A stretch of DNA of 42,042 nt, taken from the IMG/VR virus record IMGVR_UViG_3300030107_004067, positions 1 through 42,042 of that record, one strand, 5' to 3'. This document shows positions 4,392 through 41,165 of this stretch, piece after piece. The notes below the pieces were generated by a model. That model did no database searches. It saw only the letters and a program-made list of their open reading frames with translations, and was not told the DNA's origin. The DNA is from a virus. Position numbers and translations under genes: made by a program. Every line of letters begins with the position of its first letter. Within the stretch, counting starts at the first letter, position 1.

Positions 4392-5396
4392 ATGAAAGAA
4401 ATACAATATGTAGATATTGTTGCCGATCTCTCTTGGGGAGATACCGGCAAAGGAAAAATAACATCTTATCTTGCGAAGGACAAATCATATGATTATGTTT
4501 GTCGCTGGGCTGGCGGTAACAATGCCGGACACACAGTTTTCTTAAAAGGAAAGAAATTTAAAACACATCTTATTCCATCTGGTGTCTTTCATGGAATTAA
4601 ATCAATTATCGGACCTCAATGTGTAGTGCATCCAGAGTCCTTACAAGAAGAGTTGAGCTATCTTAAAGAGAAAGGATTCGACACTTCCTTGGTTAAGGTC
4701 TCTCCGAGAGCACATATTGTAACAGATAAGCATATAACAACAGATAAAAAGAAATTAGCCAAGAAGCTTGGGACAACCTCCAAAGGTATAGCCCCATGCT
4801 ATTCAGACAAGATGGCTAGAACCGGACAACTAGCAAAAGATGTCCTCCCAGAAGAATTAATCTGGGATGAACAATTAAGTGGAAAAATTCTCTGCGAGGG
4901 GGCCCAAGGTTATTATTTAGATATAGACCATGGTAATTATCCTTATGTCACCTCATCAATTACACTACCCTATGGTGCTTGTTCCCTTGGGTTCCCTCCG
5001 CAGAAAATTCGCCGTATATGGGGCATAGCCAAGCTATATGATACCCGTTCTGGTGTGGATCCACTATTCCCCGATAAGCTCCTAAAAGACAAAGAATTGG
5101 CCAAATTGGGCGATCTAGGGGGTGAAGTTGGAGTAACAACCGGACGAAAAAGAAAGTGTAATTGGCTCAATGTCGATATGATGATTGATGCCGCGAGAAA
5201 AACAGGAACAACTCACTTGGTCATTAATAAATGCGATGTGATTAGAGAATTGGGAGTGTTTAAGTGTTATAGCGGAGGAGAGTTAAAAGAATTTTCTTCT
5301 TATCATAAATTAACGAGTTTCATTACCGATAAAGTTGGTCAATCAGACTCACTAGCCAAGCACATCTATCTATCAAACTCACCGGAGAGATTATGA
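4392..5396 (+). CDS. Adenylosuccinate synthetase family (PurA/PurZ-like)
   Basis: 334 residues, about 100 shorter than bacterial PurA and close to archaeal and phage forms. The family ligates aspartate to a purine 6-carbonyl using GTP (IMP to adenylosuccinate; phage PurZ uses dGMP). Visible motifs: the P-loop WGDTGKGK with the catalytic Asp at D17 and Thr in place of the usual Glu; GGNNAGHTV with His47; GTTSKGIAPCYSDK, with Lys where PurA has the inter-subunit Arg; CEGAQG; LDIDHGNYPYVTSS; VGVTTGRKRKCNWL; and NKCDV for guanine binding. PurA activity is the default because Asp17 is kept. The Thr18 and the short length make the PurZ0-type branch possible. It overlaps FEN by ATGA. Confidence 0.88.
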   Translation: MKEIQYVDIVADLSWGDTGKGKITSYLAKDKSYDYVCRWAGGNNAGHTVFLKGKKFKTHLIPSGVFHGIKSIIGPQCVVHPESLQEELSYLKEKGFDTSLVKVSPRAHIVTDKHITTDKKKLAKKLGTTSKGIAPCYSDKMARTGQLAKDVLPEELIWDEQLSGKILCEGAQGYYLDIDHGNYPYVTSSITLPYGACSLGFPPQKIRRIWGIAKLYDTRSGVDPLFPDKLLKDKELAKLGDLGGEVGVTTGRKRKCNWLNVDMMIDAARKTGTTHLVINKCDVIRELGVFKCYSGGELKEFSSYHKLTSFITDKVGQSDSLAKHIYLSNSPERL

Positions 5397-9773: not shown

Positions 9774-9961
9774 ACGATAAAATGTTAGAAATAATCAGTA
9801 TCTTAAACGGTACGGCAGATGATCTTGATAAGATTGAAAATAAAAAGTATGGCTATAAGTCATCTGCTGTTAGAGCGAGAAAAGCTTGTCAAGAAGCTAT
9901 TAACTTACTCAAACAAATGAGAAAAGACATTCAAGATTCTAAAAACGAAGTGGAGGGATAA
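9770..9961 (+). CDS. Small helical protein, Hc1/H1-like
   Basis: 63 residues, overlapping the reductase stop by ATGA. It has a predicted amphipathic helix, a basic turn (KKYGYKSSAVRARKA) and a second helix (LLKQMRKDI). The GxKxxxxRARKA pattern resembles the N-terminal part of the bacterial histone-H1-like Hc1 family and similar small marine-phage proteins. DNA binding is possible but unproven. It ends on the ATG of the co-chaperonin gene. Confidence 0.5.
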   Translation: MNDKMLEIISILNGTADDLDKIENKKYGYKSSAVRARKACQEAINLLKQMRKDIQDSKNEVEG

Positions 9962-10245
9962 TGAACTTTGAACCAACTAACCGTCACATTTTAGTTAAAC
10001 CCATCGAGGAGAAGAAAGAAGAAACAAATTCTATGATTATGCTCCCCGATGATTATAAAAAACAAGAATCACCTTATCTTGCTTGTTCTGTCCTCGCAGT
10101 AGCGAGCGACAGCAAGCTTGTTGGGTCTCTATCAGATAATGATACCATAATTGTTGAAAGAAGAATGCTAGAAAAAATAGAGATGAAAGGTAAAGAAATC
10201 TATTTAGTCCTAGACAATTATGTAATGGGGAGATTTACAAAATGA
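9961..10245 (+). CDS. GroES/gp31-like co-chaperonin
   Basis: 94 residues, the GroES size. NRHILVKPIEEKKEE is the first barrel strand. MIMLPDDYKKQ is in the position of the mobile loop whose hydrophobic tripeptide docks to GroEL (MIML compared with GIVL). ACSVLAVA, DNDTIIVERRMLEKIEMKGKEIYLVLDNYVMGRF gives the later strands of the barrel in GroES order. Overall identity is low, as for T4 gp31. It would cap a GroEL ring; a phage GroEL is at 36436, 26 kb away. Starts inside the preceding stop (GATAATG). Confidence 0.75.
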   Translation: MNFEPTNRHILVKPIEEKKEETNSMIMLPDDYKKQESPYLACSVLAVASDSKLVGSLSDNDTIIVERRMLEKIEMKGKEIYLVLDNYVMGRFTK

Positions 10246-11390: not shown

Positions 11391-12109
11391 GCGAATATGA
11401 AAAATCTGTTCTCTTATATGGTGACGGGATTGGTCGTGTGGACTACATTTCTCATATGGGCAGTGACCTTTCCGTCGTCAATTCTGCTAGGGTTTCTTTT
11501 GGTATTGAAAAGTCTCAGTTGGATAACCGGGATAGAAAACTCATTAACTACCTTATTAAGCACAGACACACTTCTACTTTGGAGCATTGTGTTGTTACCT
11601 TTAAATTTACTGTCCCTTTATTTGTTCGTTCGCAACACCATAGGCACAGAACTTGGTCCTATAACGAAATCTCTCGTAGATATACCGACAAGGATTTGCA
11701 ATTTTATTTGCCGAAAGAATTTAGAACCCAACACAAATCCAACAGACAAGCCTCCAACCCAGACGAAGTAGCTAATCCTGTTATAGTTCATGATTGGTCT
11801 GATTATGGCGAAGGCATTCGTGCTTCTGAAATTTTAGAAACACAAACAAATAGAGCTTTGGATGTTTATCGAGACCTCATGTCAAACGGGGTTTGTCGAG
11901 AACAAGCAAGGATGATTTTACCCCAGAATCTATATACCGAGTATTATGGAACAACTAATCTTAATAACCTACTTAAATTCATTGACTTACGAACACATAT
12001 GGGAGCACAATGGGAAATCCAAAAAGCAGCGGAAGCCTGTCTTGAAATCGCTACTGAACTGTTTCCGGTCACTGTGGGGTCGTATAAGGAAATAAGGGGT
12101 GGATGTTAA
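11387..12109 (+). CDS. thyX: Flavin-dependent thymidylate synthase
   Basis: 240 residues. It converts dUMP to dTMP with FAD, NADPH and methylene-tetrahydrofolate. The signature RHRx7S is seen as R86-H87-R88...S96 (RHRTWSYNEISRRY). SARVSFG and TSTLEHCVVTFKF near the N-terminus and DLRTHMGAQWEIQKAAEA near the C-terminus are family regions. The start is GTG, overlapping the previous TGA, with GGAGG upstream. It feeds the same pool as thymidine kinase (14717) and dUTPase (30301). Confidence 0.95.
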   Translation: MSEYEKSVLLYGDGIGRVDYISHMGSDLSVVNSARVSFGIEKSQLDNRDRKLINYLIKHRHTSTLEHCVVTFKFTVPLFVRSQHHRHRTWSYNEISRRYTDKDLQFYLPKEFRTQHKSNRQASNPDEVANPVIVHDWSDYGEGIRASEILETQTNRALDVYRDLMSNGVCREQARMILPQNLYTEYYGTTNLNNLLKFIDLRTHMGAQWEIQKAAEACLEIATELFPVTVGSYKEIRGGC

Positions 12110-12341
12110 ATTCAAAGTCGGCGACCTTGTGATTCTAAATGAATTCGGTCAGTTGGTATTAGAAAACAAACTAATAACCATTGGTCTTGTGATTTCTGGA
12201 CCAAAGAACTTAACTTACCCCTTGTTTTATAGTGCCGAAGAGGATCCTTTTTGCTATTGGGCTTACAATATAATGATTGGTGACCAACTACTTACTGATG
12301 TACCGCAAGAATTCTTACTTAAAATGGTAGAAACAATTTAA
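12099..12341 (+). CDS. Small SH3-like protein (GDLV family)
   Basis: 80 residues from a GTG that overlaps the thyX end; AAGGGG serves as ribosome site. VKFKVGDLVILNEFGQ...IGLVISG is the same opening as in the tandem group at 18006-19187, indicating a paralogous family of small SH3/KOW-like barrels. Function unknown. Confidence 0.55.
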   Translation: MDVKFKVGDLVILNEFGQLVLENKLITIGLVISGPKNLTYPLFYSAEEDPFCYWAYNIMIGDQLLTDVPQEFLLKMVETI

Positions 12342-15711: not shown

Positions 15712-16665
15712 ATGACTTTATCAATAGTATTTGGAACCATCGGGTTTCTTCTGGCCGCTTACTCTGTTATAGGTAACGATAGTGCCCAAACGCTTGGAAC
15801 TTTTATAAGTTCTAATAGTAAAAAAGTTAAATGGTATTGGATGTGGTTATTTGCATCCGTTATATTAGCCGGTACTTTAATGTATGGCTGGTCCCAAGGC
15901 GATATCGCATTTGGAAGATTAAATAAAATACCACTTCCAGAGCAGTTTCAATGGTATCATGCTCTTGCTCCCGCTCTTTTGTTGGGCTTGACCCGTTACG
16001 GAATACCAGTTTCCACAACATTATTGACTTTAAGTGCATTCTCTAGCGGTCTTGTGTTGGAAAAGATAATTATGAAATCTGCGATGGGCTATGCTATAGC
16101 TGCTGTGGCTTCATATCTTATCTGGACCGTTATGTCTCGATACTTAAATGAGAAAGAACCAGTAAAAGAAAATAATAAAAAGTTCTGGTCTATCGCACAG
16201 TGGTTTTCTACGGGATTCTTATGGCATATGTGGTTGTCTCATGATATAGCAAATGTCTTTGTTTATTTGCCGAGAGAAGGTGTGGGGCTTCCCATGATGC
16301 TTTCGATCATAGCTATTTTAGTTCTCGGTCTTGGTCACCTATTCAAGACGAACGGAGGTAAGATACAAGAGATAGTCCTTTCAAAAAGTGGAACTCGCTT
16401 TATTCGATCAGCATGTTTGATTGATTTGTTTTATGCTATGGTTCTCTGGTATTTCAAAATTTATAATGATATACCGATGAGCACAACTTGGGTATTTATT
16501 GGGCTGCTTGCTGGTCGAGAGTTAGCTGTATATAGAATGTTCAACAAAGACAAGGAAGTCAAAGTTATTTTCCCCATGTTAGTTGGCGATTTCCTTAAAA
16601 TTATGCTAGGACTGGCTTTGAGTGTAGCGGTTGTATCCGGTGTTATTTATTTCGATTCTTTTTGA
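15712..16665 (+). CDS. PiT-type inorganic phosphate transporter
   Basis: 317 residues with about nine to ten hydrophobic segments. PiT transporters have two inverted halves, each with an N-D motif and a PxSTT motif. Here the first half shows GNDSAQTLGTFI (21-32) and GIPVSTTLLTL; the second shows SHDIANVFVYL and DIPMSTTWVFIG. The second half carries His-Asp instead of Asn-Asp. It would import phosphate with Na+ or H+ into the infected cell, which suits phosphate-poor marine settings and the phosphate demand of DNA synthesis. It lacks the long central cytoplasmic loop of larger PiT proteins. It is probably co-transcribed with tdk. Confidence 0.72.
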   Translation: MTLSIVFGTIGFLLAAYSVIGNDSAQTLGTFISSNSKKVKWYWMWLFASVILAGTLMYGWSQGDIAFGRLNKIPLPEQFQWYHALAPALLLGLTRYGIPVSTTLLTLSAFSSGLVLEKIIMKSAMGYAIAAVASYLIWTVMSRYLNEKEPVKENNKKFWSIAQWFSTGFLWHMWLSHDIANVFVYLPREGVGLPMMLSIIAILVLGLGHLFKTNGGKIQEIVLSKSGTRFIRSACLIDLFYAMVLWYFKIYNDIPMSTTWVFIGLLAGRELAVYRMFNKDKEVKVIFPMLVGDFLKIMLGLALSVAVVSGVIYFDSF

Positions 16666-16666
16666 C

Positions 16667-16695
16667 TTGACAAGACTTCTAATATAAGATATACT
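16667..16695 (+). promoter_or_regulatory. sigma70 promoter
   Basis: TTGACA (16667-16672), a 17-base spacer and TATACT (16690-16695), driving the phosphoesterase-Smr-ClpS operon. Confidence 0.75.
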
Positions 16696-16714: not shown

Positions 16715-17407
16715 GTGGAAGAAGATTACACCAGATTGATCATCTCAGATATACATATGGGTTCTTTGCATTCAAAGGAATCCAAGTTACAGAGATTATT
16801 AAATTCAGTAGATTTTGATGAAATCATACTCGCTGGTGACATTATCGACTTCATTCGTGTTCCAACATTCACAAAACATACAGCCGAATTGTTTCAGACA
16901 ATATCAGATTTGAACCGAGACAATAAAAGAATTATTTATATTGTTGGGAATCACGACATAGCTTTTAATAAGTTTGTAGGTGAGACCGTTGCTGGTATTG
17001 AGTTCATGGAAGAATATGAATTTGATTATGCAGGTCGCCACTATCGAGTGGAGCATGGCGATAAATACGAAAAAGGTATAGTCCATTGGAAATTCACCAT
17101 GAATATCGTTTCTATCTTTCATGATCTCTTGGAGAGGGTATTCAAGTGGAATCTTGCCGCTTGGTATGTGAGCCAACAACAAAAGAAAAGAAAGCTCAGA
17201 AGAGTGTGGGATATAATGAAACTCAACAAAGGGGCCGATGTATTTATCATGGGCCACACCCACATACCAGAAGTTGTTATTTGGGTTGATGAGATGGAGA
17301 AGATTAAAACCTATGCCAACATAGGTGATTGGGTTGAACACTCTACTTATATTCTAATTAAAGACGGACAACTTCGTCTCAAAACTTTTGAACCGGATGT
17401 GAAATGA
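16715..17407 (+). CDS. Calcineurin-like metallophosphoesterase, LpxH-like
   Basis: 230 residues from GTG with GCGGAG upstream. All metal ligands are present: SDIHMGS, GDIIDF, GNHD, VEHGD and GHTH. The insert of basic helices between HGD and GHTH (about residues 125-165, with WYVSQQQKKRKLRR) matches the lid of LpxH, the UDP-2,3-diacylglucosamine hydrolase of lipid A synthesis. A different small phosphodiester substrate is possible. If it is LpxH-like, it acts at the inner membrane of a Gram-negative host. It overlaps the Smr gene by ATGA. Confidence 0.82.
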   Translation: MEEDYTRLIISDIHMGSLHSKESKLQRLLNSVDFDEIILAGDIIDFIRVPTFTKHTAELFQTISDLNRDNKRIIYIVGNHDIAFNKFVGETVAGIEFMEEYEFDYAGRHYRVEHGDKYEKGIVHWKFTMNIVSIFHDLLERVFKWNLAAWYVSQQQKKRKLRRVWDIMKLNKGADVFIMGHTHIPEVVIWVDEMEKIKTYANIGDWVEHSTYILIKDGQLRLKTFEPDVK

Positions 17408-17673
17408 AGAAACTTGATTTACATGGAAAACGACATGATTCCGTCGAGACAGAAGTAGTAAATTTTATTTTAATGAATGAGCTTCCGGTTGAAGTTATTA
17501 CTGGAAATTCTCAAAAAATGAGAAGTATTGTTGCGAAAGCAGCAAAGAAACATGGTCTTGCTGTTTATCCAAAGGGGCTATCAAACCATGGTTCTTTTAT
17601 AGTTGTAGAAAAAACTGATTATTGTTTTGCGTGTGGTTGCGAGCCATGCGATTGTCACTGGGGGGATTACTAA
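17404..17673 (+). CDS. Mini-Smr domain protein with Cys-rich tail
   Basis: 89 residues. The Smr core is visible as LDLHG (4-8), a helix, PVEVITGNS (28-36, the TGxG-like loop) and a helix-strand (IVAKAAKKHGLAVYPKG). Smr domains are RNA endonucleases; bacterial SmrB cuts mRNA at collided ribosomes. The C-terminal tail has C74, C77, C79, C82, C84 and H85 (CFACGCEPCDCH), a probable zinc site not typical of Smr proteins. The ATG overlaps the previous stop and the TAATG end overlaps clpS, so Smr and ClpS are translationally coupled. Confidence 0.68.
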   Translation: MKKLDLHGKRHDSVETEVVNFILMNELPVEVITGNSQKMRSIVAKAAKKHGLAVYPKGLSNHGSFIVVEKTDYCFACGCEPCDCHWGDY

Positions 17674-17993
17674 TGCCTAAAAAGAAAATAGATAAACAAT
17701 CAGATCTCGGTCTACTGGACCGACATAAAGATAAAGTTGAGCCACCGAAGAAATTTAAAGTCGTGCTTTATAATGATGACTATACCTCGATGGATTTTGT
17801 TGTGGCGATCTTAGAAAAGATATTCCACAGGAATAAAGCAGATGCGACTGCTATTATGCTAAATGTACATAATTCTGGCAGAGGTGTAGCTGGTGTTTAC
17901 AGTAGAGAAATAGCAGAGACAAAAGTGGGTCAAGTAAAAGCCACCGCTTCTGCATATAAAGTGCCCTTACTTGCCGAAGCAGAACCAGAGTGA
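17673..17993 (+). CDS. clpS: ClpS adaptor
   Basis: 106 residues, the normal ClpS length. ClpS binds ClpA and delivers proteins with destabilising N-terminal residues to ClpAP. The flexible N-terminal arm is followed by the core: FKVVLYNDDYTSMDFVVAIL, which includes the NDD of the substrate pocket and the conserved TxMxFVVxIL; then IFHRNKADATAIMLNVHNSGRGVAGVYSREIAETK, matching the HxxGxGxxGxYxxExAExK region. The start chosen is the ATG in TAATG; an in-frame start 51 bases upstream lies inside the Smr gene. A phage ClpP is at 33762. Confidence 0.92.
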   Translation: MPKKKIDKQSDLGLLDRHKDKVEPPKKFKVVLYNDDYTSMDFVVAILEKIFHRNKADATAIMLNVHNSGRGVAGVYSREIAETKVGQVKATASAYKVPLLAEAEPE

Positions 17994-18005
17994 TATTTAA
18001 TATGT

Positions 18006-18263
18006 ATGCTGCTGTTGGAAGAAGAATGTAGATTTAAAATTGGGGATCTCGTAGTGATTAGCGAGCCAGTTGAATTCATGATTTATGATATGATTGTGAA
18101 ACCCGGAGATGTTGGTCTGGTTGTAGGAGTAGAATATGATACTGAAATCTTATCAGTGTGGGGAATTGATTATATTGTAATGGTTCGTGGCCGTACTCTT
18201 GTGTTTTTTGATCAAGAATTGGAACTCTTTGACGCCAAGTTGGATGGAAATACTAAATCATGA
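18006..18263 (+). CDS. Small SH3-like protein (GDLV family), copy 1 of tandem group
   Basis: 85 residues. Core: CRFKIGDLVVISEPVEFM, VKPGDVGLVVGV, DYIVMVRGRTLVFFDQELELF. It is closely paralogous to the next gene, sharing KxGDLVV, VKPGxxGLVxxx, GRxxxFFDxELxL. No ribosome site precedes the ATG; a TATTTA box is just upstream, and TTG at 18015 is an alternative start. Function unknown; the fold is probably a KOW/SH3-like barrel. Confidence 0.55.
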   Translation: MLLLEEECRFKIGDLVVISEPVEFMIYDMIVKPGDVGLVVGVEYDTEILSVWGIDYIVMVRGRTLVFFDQELELFDAKLDGNTKS

Positions 18264-18288
18264 TACTAGGTATTTTAGAGGGTACTGT

Positions 18289-18525
18289 GTGTTTGGGGAA
18301 AGAAACTTTAAAGTTGGAGATTTAGTGGTTAGTAAAATGCCTGTAGAATTAACATTTGATGATCATGTCGTAAAGCCGGGTGAAATTGGTCTTGTCATTA
18401 GTTTAATGCAATATCAAGACTGGCTAACTGGCGAATATGATTATCTTGTTTTGATCCAAGGCCGAGAAGTTTTTTTCTTTGATCATGAATTGAAACTCTA
18501 TGAACCACCCAAGGACATATCATGA
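18289..18525 (+). CDS. Small SH3-like protein, copy 2
   Basis: 78 residues from GTG at 18289, preceded by GAGGG at a 6-base distance. The open frame runs further upstream, but only into the previous gene. RNFKVGDLVVSKMPVEL, VVKPGEIGLVISL and GREVFFFDHELKLYEPP make it a recent duplicate of the preceding gene. Stop overlaps the next start (ATGA). Confidence 0.55.
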   Translation: MFGERNFKVGDLVVSKMPVELTFDDHVVKPGEIGLVISLMQYQDWLTGEYDYLVLIQGREVFFFDHELKLYEPPKDIS

Positions 18526-18716
18526 ATATAACTTTCTCTTTCCAAGGTGCTACATTAATTTGTATTAATAGTTTTGCTTTTTTTGAGAAAGGAAGGGAGT
18601 ATTATTGCACTCACGATACTGGTGAACATTTTTATATTTTCTGTCCTCATGAGAAGTTTGGTGTAAGCCAAATTAAATTATCAAATGAATCCAAGCAACA
18701 CTTCCGAAGGGCCTAA
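18522..18716 (+). CDS. Small hypothetical protein in the SH3-like cluster
   Basis: 64 residues, overlapping by ATGA. It has a hydrophobic start, then FEKGREYYCTHDTGEHFYIF, which could be an SH3-like strand set without the GDLV opening. Unrecognised; kept because of the tight spacing on both sides. Confidence 0.4.
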   Translation: MNITFSFQGATLICINSFAFFEKGREYYCTHDTGEHFYIFCPHEKFGVSQIKLSNESKQHFRRA

Positions 18717-18936
18717 GTTTAATGTAGGCGACTTGGTAACATATGTTTATTCAAGTTCTGATGATACGCACCCAAGAGTGGGGCTTGTTATAGGCTTCTT
18801 TAAGGTTGAAATGATCTTACCGGAGGAATCACCATTTACTGATCATTTTTATGAATATGATGTTATGTGGGTTGGTGCGAACTATGCTTCTATTATGTTT
18901 GAGATGTTCTTAGAAAAATATGAACATGAAAAATAA
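18685..18936 (+). CDS. Small SH3-like protein, copy 3
   Basis: 83 residues, overlapping the previous gene by 32 bases. PKFNVGDLVTYVYSSSDD, RVGLVIGFF and YEYDVMWVG give the family opening, the GLV strand and the last strand. It is more diverged than copies 1 and 2. Confidence 0.5.
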   Translation: MNPSNTSEGPKFNVGDLVTYVYSSSDDTHPRVGLVIGFFKVEMILPEESPFTDHFYEYDVMWVGANYASIMFEMFLEKYEHEK

Positions 18937-18953: not shown

Positions 18954-19187
18954 GTGGGCAAAACGGGTTATAATAGTTTAGAGGTTGGAGATTTAGTTCT
19001 CTATGCTCCTTACTTTGAAGGTGAGGGTGCATGGGTGATGAGCGGTGATCTTGGAATTGCCTTGGAAGTCAAAACAGTAGATAATGTACAGATAGTCAGA
19101 GTCAGATGGATTAATCCAGAAATGGATGAAAACGATATGGCCGCAGATGTTTTAGTAAAAGTGGAGAACACAGATGAAAATAAATAA
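18954..19187 (+). CDS. Small SH3-like protein, copy 4
   Basis: 77 residues from GTG. NSLEVGDLVLYAPYFEG, GDLGIALEVKTVD and IVRVRWINPEMDEND fit the KOW/SH3-like pattern (entry Gly-Asp, exit Val-Arg-Trp). No Shine-Dalgarno is seen; the CTATTTA motif occupies that position. It overlaps the nucleotidyltransferase start by 14 bases. Confidence 0.5.
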   Translation: MGKTGYNSLEVGDLVLYAPYFEGEGAWVMSGDLGIALEVKTVDNVQIVRVRWINPEMDENDMAADVLVKVENTDENK

Positions 19188-31010: not shown

Positions 31011-31323
31011 TTTATTATTAATGCTCGCCTGTGGCGATTCTCTTTCGGCATTGCCTTTGACAAAAGAATTTTATGAATGGCATTGTGAGCCCGAAACAGA
31101 GGATTACCCATTGGATAATGTATATGTTACTACAAACACTTGCGATGATAGCGTGACATGGATCATAGCAGAGATGCACCTTTATGATGGTGAATTGATG
31201 GCTCGTAGGTTGGAAAAAGATTCTTTAAGTGTTAATTGCGAATGGCATACTTATTTTCCTCTAATAAATGATTATTATTGTGAAGATGTTGAAGGTGTTA
31301 CACTAACTGCGTGGGTTAAATAA
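31003..31323 (+). CDS. Small lipoprotein
   Basis: 106 residues. The start at 31003 is chosen because GGAG sits 7 bases upstream; an ATG 12 bases earlier overlaps that site. The signal is only MISLLLMLAC, then a mature part with four cysteines (WHC, TC, NC, YC) that could pair in the periplasm. Its style matches the genes at 3016 and 20797. Function unknown. It overlaps the next gene by TAATG. Confidence 0.62.
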   Translation: MISLLLMLACGDSLSALPLTKEFYEWHCEPETEDYPLDNVYVTTNTCDDSVTWIIAEMHLYDGELMARRLEKDSLSVNCEWHTYFPLINDYYCEDVEGVTLTAWVK

Positions 31324-32333
31324 TGAAAATTACAGAAACAATAACTTTTGATGACCTTTTATTAGTGCCGCGTTATTCAGAAATAATGAGTCGTAAAACA
31401 ATCGACCTTCATTCTGATTTGGATACGAGTAGAAGACTTGATGTTCCGATTATTTCTTCACCAATGGATACCGTAACGGGAGCAACTATGGCTACCGCTA
31501 TGAGTAAAGCCGGTGGTCTTGGAATTATTCATCGCTACGATTCGATTGAAAAACAGTGTGATAGGGTTACAAGAACAAGGGGAAGAAAAGCCGCTGCCAT
31601 AGGAGTTACGGGCGACTATCTTGATAGGGCCTCTGCTCTTGTCAGGGCCGGTTGTGACATATTGTGTGTTGATGTCGCTCATGGACACCATGCTCTTATG
31701 AGACACGCTCTAAAAACTTTAAGAAATACAATAGGTTATGATATACACATCATGGCTGGAAACGTTGCAACTTTGGAGGGCTTTAACGATTTAGCTGATT
31801 GGGGTGCCAATTCTATTCGTGTTGGCATTGGAGGTGGCTCAATATGTTCAACACGAATACAAACCGGACATGGGGTTCCTACATTACAATCAGTCATGGA
31901 CTGCTCTCAATCCGATAGGTCGGTAGCACTAATTGCTGATGGTGGAATTAAAACGCCGGGTGACATTGTAAAGGCTCTCGCTGCTGGTGCTGATTTTGTT
32001 ATGCTAGGTTCTATGCTTGCTGGAACAGCAGAATCACCGGGGCAAGTGTTTTATGGCGAGAATGGACAATACAAGTCTTATCGAGGCATGGCATCGGTAG
32101 AGGCCCAGATTGATTGGAGGGGGCACACTGCTTCGGTAGAGGGGGTGTCCCACACTATACCATATAAAGGATCAGTTGTTGAGATTCTCATGGGATTAGA
32201 AGGTAGCATTAGAAGCGGCTTATCTTATACTGGTGCTTTGAATCTTAGCGAATTAAGATCAAAATCAAAGTTTATCAAACAAACTGCCGCAGGTCAGACA
32301 GAAAGTAGTACCCACATCAAGTCAAGGTACTAA
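31323..32333 (+). CDS. IMP dehydrogenase/GMP reductase family enzyme
   Basis: 336 residues, a bare TIM barrel without CBS domains. TFDDLLLVP and [28 protein letters not shown] are the family opening. VDVAHGH and [10 protein letters not shown] follow. The catalytic Cys is C175 in [44 protein letters not shown] is the phosphate site. The C-terminus (IPYKGSV...[11 protein letters not shown]) is closer to IMPDH than to GMP reductase, but the IMPDH Arg-Tyr flap is not clear. IMPDH makes XMP on the way to GMP, so with the PurA-like enzyme at 4392 the phage touches both IMP branches. Confidence 0.88.
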
Positions 32334-33369: not shown

Positions 33370-33765
33370 GTGGAAGAGTACAGTACATTTTTTATAGGTT
33401 TGATAGCGGGAATAATTATTCTTAGAGTGTGGGATTACATTTATGCCATGGGAACAATAGGTTTAGCAGTTAAGTCTTGTATTAAAGATTCCATCATCAT
33501 GATCGCAAAGAATGTTCAATCGGTTTATGAGATAAATGAATTAAAGTATATTGCTTTGGAGATGTCTGATAAAGACGAGAAGTATGTAGACTTTCAGAAA
33601 GCCATGGACACACGCGAACTCCATTCAATGAAGAATACTACTATAAGAAATTTTATTAATAGTATACCACCAAAATATAATCACCTCATTCCGTTTAGTG
33701 ATTGGGGAACAGCCATGGATTATATCAACGCAGAGTTACAAAAGAAAAAGGAGGACATGCAATGA
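33370..33765 (+). CDS. Conserved phage membrane-anchored protein
   Basis: 131 residues from GTG with GGAG upstream. One N-terminal hydrophobic segment (TFFIGLIAGIIILRVWDYIY) and then a cytoplasmic helical domain (NELKYIALEMSDKDEKY, IRNFINSIPPKYNHLIPFSDW). Its stop overlaps clpP (AATGA). Unknown function; coupling to clpP suggests a partner. Confidence 0.6.
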   Translation: MEEYSTFFIGLIAGIIILRVWDYIYAMGTIGLAVKSCIKDSIIMIAKNVQSVYEINELKYIALEMSDKDEKYVDFQKAMDTRELHSMKNTTIRNFINSIPPKYNHLIPFSDWGTAMDYINAELQKKKEDMQ

Positions 33766-34412
33766 TTATAGGTTCAGACAAGGACAAGAAGAAAAAGAAA
33801 GAAAAATCCACAGAGGCACCAGCAGCACCGGATGAAACAACAGAAGAGGCCATGGGTGCCTTAGAGCAGTTACTCGGCGGTCCACAAAATGAAATCAGAA
33901 CAATTGGTTTGATGGGCGATGTTGATGAAGAGAAGGGTGGTGACCTCATGATGGCGATTCTATTGCTTACGGAATTAAGCGGCAAGGAGGCTCCTTATGA
34001 TCCGATTACTATGTATATTTCCACATATGGCGGCTCTGCTGATGAAATGTTCGGCATCTACGATATTATGACCAGAGCTAAAAGAGAATGCGAGATTCAT
34101 ACTATTGGTGTTGGTAAAGTTATGTCTGCTGGGACTTTGGTTTTAGCATCAGGAACAAAGGGTAAAAGAAAGATTGGAAAACACTGTCGTGTTATGATCC
34201 ATTCAGTCAATTCTGGACACATGGGAGAACTCCATAGTATTGAGAACGAAGTAAAAGCAGTTAAGCACATGCAAGAACTTTATATCAATGCGATGGCCGC
34301 AGAAACTCACATGACCAAAAGACAATTACAAAAACTTATTGATCGAAAGGTTAATGTTTATTTAAGTGCAGAAGAAGCGATTGAATATGGGATCGCTGAC
34401 GAAATACTTTAG
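33762..34412 (+). CDS. clpP: ClpP serine protease
   Basis: 216 residues. The ATG in GCAATGATT is chosen because GGAGG lies upstream. The catalytic triad is complete: S122 (GKVMSAGTLVLASG), H147 (CRVMIHSVNSG) and D194 (KLIDRKVNVYLSAEEAIEYGIAD). YISTYGGSADEMFGIYDIM is the oxyanion and axial helix region. The N-terminal 40 residues are a Lys-rich, then acidic extension not seen in cellular ClpP, replacing the usual axial loops. It forms the barrel that host ClpA/ClpX feed, or serves in prohead maturation as other phage ClpP-like proteases do. ClpS (17673) and tmRNA (40827) are also encoded. Confidence 0.93.
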   Translation: MIIGSDKDKKKKKEKSTEAPAAPDETTEEAMGALEQLLGGPQNEIRTIGLMGDVDEEKGGDLMMAILLLTELSGKEAPYDPITMYISTYGGSADEMFGIYDIMTRAKRECEIHTIGVGKVMSAGTLVLASGTKGKRKIGKHCRVMIHSVNSGHMGELHSIENEVKAVKHMQELYINAMAAETHMTKRQLQKLIDRKVNVYLSAEEAIEYGIADEIL

Positions 34413-36435: not shown

Positions 36436-38007
36436 ATGACTAAGCACTATAGCAATGGTCAAGGCTTGAACACGAAACTGTTGAGTGGAATCAATAAGCT
36501 CGCCGATAATGTCGGAAGCACCCTTGGCCCAAAAGGCCGCAATGTTATTCTTTTTCATAAAGAACAAAACACCCCCGTCATTACAAAAGACGGGGTAACT
36601 ATCGCGAAGTTTGTAGAATTTGAAGATCCCTTTGAGAACGTTGGGGCTCAAATTGTAAAACAAGCTGCCGAAGAATCTGCAAATAATGCTGGCGACGGGA
36701 CAACAACCACAACGGTTCTTGCCCGTGGTATCATTAACCGAGCGCAAAAGTATATTACTGCGGGGGTCTCTCCGATTGAATTGAAGCGTGGTATGGATGC
36801 AACGACAACGGCCCTGACCGCCCAGTTGAAAGAACTGTCTCGACCAATCCAAAGCGAAGAAGACATACAGCATGTTGCAACCATCTCGGCTAACAATGAT
36901 ACAACAATTGGAACATTGATCGCTAAGGCTGTTGACTGCGCGGGTAAGGATGGCTCTGTCATTGTTGAGGAGGCGAGATCAATTGAGACATCGCTAGATC
37001 TTATTGAGGGGTTTCGATTTGATTCGGGCTATCTTGCAACCGCCTTTGTAACCGATGAAAGAAACGGAATAGTTAATTATGAAAACCCACTTATTCTCGT
37101 TACCGACGAGAAGATTGAGTATGTTGATCAAATTCTTCCAACGCTTGAACTCGCTGCGCGAGAAAATCGACCACTGCTTTTTGTTGCAAATGATATTGTT
37201 GATCAAGCATTGGCAGCACTTATCATGAACACTGTACGGGGCTCTTTAAAGGTTGCCGCTGTTAAGGCCCCTCGCTATGGAGAGGAACGTAGGAACATTA
37301 TGAAAGACCTATGCGTTTCCATAGGCGCAACTTACCTCACCAGAGAAACTGGCTTACAACTTAAAGATGTTCAGCTTAAGCATTTTGGAAACTGCAAAAA
37401 GATTTCAATCAACAAAAGTTGGACAACTATCGTCGGCGGCAAAGGAGAACAAAATGAGATTGACAAACAAATTGAGACGATTAAAGCGGAGATTAAAGCC
37501 ACCGAGTCGCTTAAAGAATGCGAACGTCATCAGGAACGGATCACTCGTCTTGCTAGTGGCGTTGCTGTTATTAGGGTCGGAGCAGCTACAGAAGTGGAAA
37601 TGATAGAGAAAAAACATCGCATAGACGATGCTCTTGAAGCGGTTAAATCCGCCCAATTAGAAGGTATTGTTCCGGGGGGTGGTTGTGCTCTTATACATGC
37701 CGCAAAGTGCATAGAAATCAATGATTTGAGCGAGGAACAGGCCATTGGACGAGACATTGTACTTGAAGCAATTCAAGAACCTTTGAGACAAATGGCAACA
37801 AACGCGGGACTTTCTCCTGACTTAGTTGTTAGTCAAGTTATTAACTCAAATGAGGGCAACGGTTACGATTTCATGACAAATGAGGTAAAAGAACTTACAT
37901 CCTCTGGTATCATCGATCCCACAAAAGTAACACGTTGTGCTCTTGAAAACGCTGTCTCCGTCGCCTCAACTTTATTAACAACAGGGCACGCCATTGTATC
38001 GCAGTGA
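36436..38007 (+). CDS. groEL: Chaperonin GroEL
   Basis: 523 residues (E. coli 548) with GGAGG. It is an ATP-driven folding ring. Equatorial ATP motifs are present: TLGPKGRNVIL, KDGVTIAK, NAGDGTTTTTVLARGI and IVPGGGCALIHA near the C-terminus. The hydrolysis Asp is in HRIDDALEAVKSA, and GIIDPTKVTR matches the GILDPTKVTR end. The apical domain is diverged, for example IEGFRFDSGYLATAFVTDE in place of the usual GMxFDRGYxSPYFxT. The Gly-Gly-Met tail is missing; it ends TTGHAIVSQ. This is a full phage chaperonin, with a GroES-like partner at 9961. Confidence 0.95.
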   Translation: MTKHYSNGQGLNTKLLSGINKLADNVGSTLGPKGRNVILFHKEQNTPVITKDGVTIAKFVEFEDPFENVGAQIVKQAAEESANNAGDGTTTTTVLARGIINRAQKYITAGVSPIELKRGMDATTTALTAQLKELSRPIQSEEDIQHVATISANNDTTIGTLIAKAVDCAGKDGSVIVEEARSIETSLDLIEGFRFDSGYLATAFVTDERNGIVNYENPLILVTDEKIEYVDQILPTLELAARENRPLLFVANDIVDQALAALIMNTVRGSLKVAAVKAPRYGEERRNIMKDLCVSIGATYLTRETGLQLKDVQLKHFGNCKKISINKSWTTIVGGKGEQNEIDKQIETIKAEIKATESLKECERHQERITRLASGVAVIRVGAATEVEMIEKKHRIDDALEAVKSAQLEGIVPGGGCALIHAAKCIEINDLSEEQAIGRDIVLEAIQEPLRQMATNAGLSPDLVVSQVINSNEGNGYDFMTNEVKELTSSGIIDPTKVTRCALENAVSVASTLLTTGHAIVSQ

Positions 38008-40764: not shown

Positions 40765-40821
40765 ATGGAAAATTGTAAATGTTGCAAGTGTTGTCAATGT
40801 GATTGTGAAAATTGCTGTTAA
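40765..40821 (+). CDS. Cysteine-rich 18-residue micropeptide
   Basis: MENCKCCKCCQCDCENCC: nine of 18 residues are cysteine, in CxCCxCCxCxC spacing like a metallothionein fragment. AGGGGG lies about 8 bases before the ATG. It lies between a membrane-protein gene and the tmRNA (6 bases away) on the same predicted transcript. It could bind Zn or Cu or buffer metals or redox. Translation is unproven, but half the codons being Cys codons is hard to explain by chance. Confidence 0.5.
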   Translation: MENCKCCKCCQCDCENCC

Positions 40822-40826
40822 TTTAA

Positions 40827-41165
40827 GGGGGTTACATGGTTTCGACAGCGTAGAACTCGGAGGCCGAGTGCAGGTAGGTAAGATACAACCTTAAAAGTTC
40901 AAACTTAATAATTGCAAACAATAATTTGTTTTTTGAAGAAGTAGCCTTAGCTGCTTAATCAGGTGGTCGCTTCACGCCATCTGTCCAAGTGAAGCAACAC
41001 AACAGATAAGTTGTAAAAATCAAAAAACTTGGTGCAACAGGGCAGTAAGCATCATTTTAAAACTGCCTATCTTTGTCGGAGTTGTGATAGAAAACCGACT
41101 AAACCTGTGAATGACTTTAATCTTAGCTGCGTTGGACAGGGGTTCGATTCCCCTATCCTCCACCA
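40827..41165 (+). ncRNA. ssrA: Transfer-messenger RNA (one-piece tmRNA)
   Basis: About 339 bases. The tRNA-like part is clear: 5' GGGGGTT pairs with ATCCTCC before ACCA (one U-U mismatch), with the G3-U wobble that marks alanine charging. GGTTTCGACAG is the conserved tmRNA 5' segment and AGGGGTTCGATTCCCCT the T arm; CCA is encoded. The tag frame starts at GCA 40914 and ends at TAA 40956-40958, giving ANNNLFFEEVALAA, which after the charged Ala ends in the ClpXP/ClpAP degron ALAA. It frees stalled ribosomes and tags the product. No SmpB gene is in the window, so host SmpB is presumably used. Confidence 0.95.

Follow-up and report, generated by a model that had tools for sequence, protein, structure and literature searches.

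The window analysed here, the whole of a linear fragment of 42,042 bases from an IMG/VR virus record (IMGVR_UViG_3300030107_004067), contains a run of overlapping plus-strand genes that begins with a calcineurin-like phosphoesterase of the UDP-2,3-diacylglucosamine hydrolase/YfcE-like type (16715..17407; PF00149, E = 8.8e-12, with NCBIfam scores below their cut-offs), continues with a protein of 89 amino acids that we call mini-Smr (17404..17673) and ends with clpS, encoding an N-degron adaptor of 106 amino acids (17673..17993). The 3' end of the phosphoesterase gene and the start of mini-Smr share four bases (ATGA), and the clpS ATG lies within a TAATG at the mini-Smr stop codon, as if the two genes, already called coupled in the initial annotation, were translationally coupled. 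Synteny of the phosphoesterase is kept in the relatives L002, L003 and G078. The transcript of the run probably starts at a sigma-70-like promoter, TTGACA-17-TATACT (16667..16695, +), which matches the consensus at 11 of 12 positions and lies just 5' of the phosphoesterase; because promoter-like sites in the region are not above the chance level seen in shuffled sequence, the one argument for this site is its position.

The PHO4-like phosphate transporter gene at 15712-16665 is 100% identical in L003 and missing from this place in the otherwise ~90% identical L002, which suggests that it moves independently. Small paralogue-like proteins with a KVGDLV...GLV motif, SH3/KOW-like by eye, are encoded at 12099-12341, 18006-18263, 18187-18525, 18685-18936 and 18954-19187; those at 18006 and 18187 cross-match in relatives, and a protein of similar kind at locus L258 bears the cysteine tail described below. 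An adenylosuccinate synthetase (PF00709, 6.6e-82), together with an IMP dehydrogenase-like gene (4392-5396 and 31323-32333), may bear on purine handling; the best PHROG for the synthetase is a 2-aminoadenine-type synthetase, and NCBIfam PurA and PurZ both score below cut-off.

As the initial annotation had stated, and as ORFs, Pfam, ARAGORN and Rfam bear out, the phage that carries mini-Smr and clpS also carries ClpP and tmRNA genes, both on the plus strand, unlinked to the Smr-ClpS run and 16-23 kb from it. The ClpP-like serine protease (33762..34412; PF00574, 1.9e-34, with PDB ClpP matches) retains the Ser-His-Asp triad in VMSAG, VMIH and LIDR, as judged by eye from alignments with E. coli and Plasmodium ClpP. 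The tmRNA (40827..41165; ARAGORN; Rfam RF00023, 100.9 bits, full length) has tRNA-like and mRNA-like domains and encodes the tag ANNNLFFEEVALAA, ending in LAA. With GroEL (36436-38007) and GroES (9961-10245), these genes span distances of 7-23 kb from the run. An ORF of 18 amino acids, MENCKCCKCCQCDCENCC, lies just 5' of the tmRNA (40765-40821) and has a metallothionein-like composition, with none expected in shuffles.

Conventional family searches barely register mini-Smr: PF01713 gives E = 0.0055 and 17.3 bits against a gathering cut-off of 25.7, and PHROG and NCBIfam searches returned no match. An Smr match at E <= 0.1 is found in 67 of 93 relatives, the best at 4.3e-7. The AlphaFold (AF2) model, built from 91 alignment rows with two GenBank phage rows left out, has a pLDDT of 83 and the b-a-b-a-b-b order of the Smr fold, and its four best matches in the PDB (MutS2 of B. 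subtilis, T. thermophilus and D. radiodurans, and human N4BP2) are all Smr domains, at probabilities of 0.99-1.0 and modest E-values of 0.01-0.05. It was this fold comparison that settled the assignment; a family-profile search of PDB sequences yielded no meaningful match, and an hhalign comparison with SmrB gave one confined to 23 residues of the DLHG region. Membership of the Smr fold is thus well supported by the predicted structure, and the initial identification of the small protein as Smr holds at the level of fold, with the Pfam cut-off missed.

The motifs of mini-Smr correspond in part to those of characterized Smr domains. LDLHGxxH (17413..17436, +; D5, H7 and H11 in alignments A1, A2 and A3) includes a nearly invariant LDLH at residues 4-7, in which D5 and H7 correspond to the DxH of SmrB; DLHGxxH is present in 158 of 171 relatives, and its extra histidine is near-invariant. 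The canonical HGxG/TGxG loop gives way to TGNSQKM (17500..17520, +), where G34 and S36 are invariant in the alignment and M39 nearly so. Classical Smr domains (families 1 and 3) have HGxG here and family 2 has TGxG (PMC3200294), whereas mini-Smr has TGNS or CGNS, in which the first glycine is kept and serine replaces the second. Among the relatives, CGNS (92), TGNS (48) and TGKS (14) are the main variants, with others besides, although these motif frequencies arise partly by construction, as the search seeds and pattern contain the motifs. The family pattern is therefore LDLHG with (T/C)GNSxxM in place of HGxG, and since LDLHG begins at residue 4, as against about residue 97 in SmrB, there is no N-terminal extension of the SmrB type. 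As the DLH residues of SmrB act in catalysis and both DLR and HGxG are required for ribosome binding by MutS2 (PMC10897456), the comparison is of an Asp-His pair that is present and a binding loop that differs. The core is under purifying selection, with a dN/dS over codons of 0.08 between the window and its L002 homologue.

The alignment search yielded 294 viral loci, of which the best 80 were used, and 89 cellular loci, mostly from SAR86 with some from Bacteroidota and Neomarinimicrobiota. A tree of 98 rows mixes viral with cellular members, with at least four well-supported switches between them, and places the window mini-Smr with those of L002 and G078. A tblastn search of GenBank phages with three representatives matched just two genomes, both uncultured (634-642 kb), so that isolates are unusable for studying co-occurrence. 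The proteins encoded within 5 kb of viral copies, clustered and then named by eye from their sequences, include RecA, SSB-like and UvdE-like proteins, thymidine kinase, QueD/E, FolE and IMPDH. SAR86 and some marine Bacteroidota carry members on their chromosomes (L135-L214); the SAR86 copies, with neighbours named in the same way, are often beside thymidine kinase or dihydroorotase and may also lie near acyl-CoA dehydrogenase. Among the recurring neighbours, viral or cellular, no Clp or translation gene was recognised. In L003, a one-base deletion relative to the window (10165-10185) breaks Smr before its cysteine tail, through either a sequencing error or a real frameshift.

That tail, CFACGCEPCDCHWGDY (17623..17670, +), had been described in the initial annotation as a CxxCxCxxCxCH sequence atypical of the family, and it is indeed absent from the other Smr relatives examined, the G078 protein included. 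It was also considered as an integral part of Smr, a notion ruled out by the tail-less relatives together with its occurrence on other proteins. An exact scan found it on the Smr of close relatives, on the KOW-like protein at L258 and in short ORFs at the 3' end of ClpS (L256, L259), and a looser pattern retrieved 32 viral stretches; since a cysteine at residue 6 and PCDC, neither of them required by the pattern, occur in every readable stretch, we regard these as a single separable motif, CxxCGCxPCDCxWG. Its carriers (among L256, L258, L259 and L261-L287), many but not all of them related to the window phage, include free peptides of 22-50 amino acids, a NifU-like protein (L284; PF01592, 3.1e-26) and a protein that is ParB-like by eye and has no Pfam match (L267). 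In L262, L264, L268, L274 and L276, peptides of 43-48 amino acids with two copies lie ~280-300 bases upstream of GroEL, and the motif is often found near ClpS, ClpP-GroEL or PiT-MPE. Between the window and L002, the tail shows three non-synonymous and two synonymous changes, with every Cys, His and Trp kept. A BLAST search of GenBank phages with the tail gave nothing significant, and the sequence was not found in the literature searched. The cysteine spacing suggests metal binding, the structure model being of low confidence in this part. Tentatively, CxxCGCxPCDCxWG could be a mobile metal-binding module of large marine phages, occurring both in free mini-proteins and as a tail on proteins as unrelated as Smr and those of NifU-like, ParB-like and KOW-like type. 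That it so often lies beside ClpS, ClpP-GroEL or PiT-MPE suggests that it might be a shared tag, drawing its bearers to one partner, possibly a metal pool or a complex of chaperone and protease.

The ClpS assignment is straightforward. The protein matches PF02617 (E = 2.4e-31) and solved ClpS chains (PDB 3dnj, 9.9e-22), its NDDYTSM and VH align to E. coli ClpS such that the Asp-Asp and His ligand positions are kept, and its dN/dS between the window and L002 is 0.03, with dS near saturation. Given the retained ligand residues and the structural matches, N-degron binding and delivery to host ClpAP would be expected. No SmpB, ClpA or ClpX was found within the window, so the partners must come from the host or be encoded outside the fragment. 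ClpS inhibits the degradation of ssrA-tagged proteins by ClpAP, diverting ClpAP from them, and for this reason the chain proposed in the initial annotation, from tmRNA tagging to ClpS-mediated degradation, is not a natural one. ClpS also occurs without Smr, as in the RuvC-ClpS-primase order of L026, and in several named jumbo phages its neighbours include IF3, S21, KTSC-domain or ClpX genes. Jumbo-phage ClpS has already been described as an adaptor likely to bring targets to host ClpAP (PMC7824862).

The initial annotation further proposed that Smr, ClpS, ClpP and tmRNA together form a dedicated quality-control module, for which co-occurrence and linkage across relatives provide the test. Among 14 Smr-bearing contigs longer than 130 kb, ClpS is found in five, ClpP in nine, full-length tmRNA in seven, and all four genes in one (G024). 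The seven contigs of at least 115 kb from the window's own lineage, which are not a random sample (G024 was included for its Smr, G101 for its tail, G069 for its RecA and the others for their RNR), have ClpP and GroEL in 7/7, tmRNA in 6/7 (the exception being a 115-kb fragment), ClpS in 3/7 and Smr in 2/7. Their common gene order is polA, ssb, recA, exo, dnaB, RNR, groES, dnaE, (guaB), ClpP, GroEL, with gaps where some gene went undetected. In this lineage, then, ClpP and GroEL are core, tmRNA is nearly core, and Smr and ClpS are accessory. Both Smr-positive lineage contigs are also ClpS-positive, which by hand calculation has a chance probability of 3/21 = 0.14. The predicted co-occurrence does appear in the deeper relatives G080 and G024, each of which has all four genes, but linkage is limited: Smr and ClpS are 105 kb apart in G080, where the context of ClpS is g20797-ClpS-MPE-PiT without Smr, and 66 kb apart in G024. 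Of 34 RNR loci with at least 8.5 kb of downstream sequence, only two, at 96-97% identity, have Smr-ClpS there, as against 0/32 in the syntenic region of relatives at 83% identity or less. A check for false absence among the nearest homologues showed that G065 and G067 (RecA 98%) owe their lack of Smr and ClpS solely to contigs that stop short of the locus. G093, G099 and G069 keep tmRNA and ClpP although both Smr and ClpS are missing. In G069 (L434), a relative from the lineage, there is also a ClpX gene, as well as a second ClpP of more canonical type (phmmer 6.7e-141 and 4.9e-81).

The best evidence for a linked Smr-ClpS pair is provided by G078 (RecA 74%), a deeper relative in which the order PiT-MPE-Smr-ClpS and the TAATG overlap are found at identities of 46% for Smr and 68% for ClpS. 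As the overlap, shared by the window, L002, L003 and G078, survives this divergence, some selection on the pairing is possible. Adjacency is nevertheless limited to the window's close relatives and G078, and a conserved four-gene unit of linked, co-occurring genes was not found; an undescribed quality-control module is thus not supported as a conserved unit, and a quality-control role for mini-Smr by itself is a possibility.

The explanation we favour, and which we consider somewhat probable as a whole, functions included, is that the phosphoesterase, mini-Smr and ClpS genes form a small accessory run within the part of a large marine phage genome given over to expression and replication, and that tmRNA, ClpP and GroEL/GroES are the lineage's separate core proteostasis set. 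ClpS would be a canonical N-degron adaptor, most likely redirecting host ClpAP to chosen host or phage proteins, its family and ligand residues being evident and its action proposed. Mini-Smr would be a stand-alone, minimal Smr-fold protein of ~70 amino acids from an undescribed subfamily that marine phages have in common with SAR86/Bacteroidota. Structured RNA or DNA is its most likely ligand, bound by the LDLHGxxH/(T/C)GNSxxM face and possibly cleaved by the retained Asp-His pair. The adjacency of the two genes would reflect a recent gene order rather than a conserved unit, and only among the window's close relatives would Smr have gained a cysteine peptide of metal-binding type. Counting for this explanation are the fold, the viral and cellular spread, neighbours unrelated to translation or proteolysis, the independence of Smr, ClpS and tmRNA, ClpS genes that occur without Smr, the canonical ClpS residues, the published view of jumbo-phage ClpS and the tail-less Smr of G078; counting against it are the TAATG overlap kept in G078 and the presence of all four genes in two distant relatives. 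We found no biochemical test of the mini-Smr family in the literature.

These same observations bear on the alternatives. Were mini-Smr to cut mRNA at collided ribosomes, with phage tmRNA tagging the product and ClpS/ClpP degrading it, one could account for the retained DLH residues, for the company of all four genes in the window, the L002 contig, G080 and G024, and for tmRNA in about half of the large Smr-bearing contigs. We nonetheless think such a translation quality-control unit improbable: the HGxG that serves MutS2 in ribosome binding together with DLR is replaced, the SmrB-like N-terminal region is missing, tmRNA and ClpP belong to the lineage core with or without Smr, SmpB, ClpA and ClpX were not found in the window, nor translation genes among the recurring Smr neighbours, and ClpS works against ssrA-tag degradation by ClpAP. 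In addition, seven other named phages with ClpS that were searched (W01, W03, W04, W07-W10: Phosso, SCTP-2, PA5oct, BF, CBB, Vibrio 2.275.O and Atu_ph07) have no such Smr and no tmRNA over cut-off. A rather better, though still doubtful, case can be made for an endonuclease or binder that acts on DNA or is linked to nucleotide metabolism (on branched DNA, in host DNA breakdown or in repair), with the proximity of ClpS incidental. The viral neighbours and the thymidine kinase and dihydroorotase genes of SAR86 fit such a role, and Smr domains of families 1-3 have in vitro cleavage activity on branched or supercoiled DNA (PMC3200294); however, the SAR86 neighbours differ among clades, and since nucleotide and DNA genes are the commonest in such phages, the neighbourhood is weak as evidence.

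It is also conceivable that mini-Smr is a catalytically weak or dead decoy, which by occupying either host Smr substrates or the collision site would block the response that host SmrB or MutS2 would trigger during infection. Nuclease-inactive Smr domains are common (PMC10897456), and a minimal domain without accessory parts and with an altered GxG loop might serve, but the near-invariance of the Asp-His pair among 171 relatives suggests chemistry, and a decoy would be hard to explain on the chromosome of SAR86, where the family also occurs; we regard this as very unlikely. The lineage survey recasts and corrects the proposed module as a testable question of gene content, in which large marine phages have a core proteostasis set of ClpP, GroEL, GroES and tmRNA, with ClpS and Smr optional. 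Mini-Smr is among the smallest Smr-fold proteins seen in the analysis and is uncatalogued in PHROGs and NCBIfam, although it is widespread both among marine phages and in SAR86, a bacterium abundant in the ocean; it offers a test case for whether an Smr domain needs no other part to bind ribosomes or to cleave nucleic acid. The newest element is the recurring cysteine peptide, whose CxxCGCxPCDCxWG motif is new and easy to search; the widespread mini-Smr subfamily is new as well.

An earlier phage Smr domain is that of the Lactobacillus phage phiFSW repressor, a family 3 member proposed to be a repressor (PMC3200294) and likened here by description only. The jumbo phages PA5oct, SCTP-2, BF, CBB and Phosso (PMC7824862), like the window, encode a ClpS adaptor and ClpP and are thought to redirect proteolysis; unlike it, the seven named ones searched are without mini-Smr and tmRNA. 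The Smr domain of B. subtilis MutS2 belongs to the group that gives the best fold matches (9a5o, 2zqe and 4och), from which mini-Smr differs in having no ATPase or KOW domain, DLH instead of DLR, and no HGxG. E. coli SmrB, a stand-alone family 3 protein and ribosome rescue factor, shares the DLHG motif and the Smr fold, whereas mini-Smr is without its N-terminal ~95 amino acids and its HGxG, and the pairwise profile match extends over the 23 residues around DLHG. Family 2, represented by the human N4BP2 C-terminal domain (PDB 3fau, 2vkc), has in common with mini-Smr the b-a-b-a-b-b order, LDxH and, in loop 3, Thr-Gly for His-Gly; in contrast, mini-Smr is a stand-alone viral and bacterial protein of ~70 amino acids, with TGNS, in which Ser stands for the second Gly of TGxG, and with an extra near-invariant His (DLHGxxH) and Met (NSxxM).
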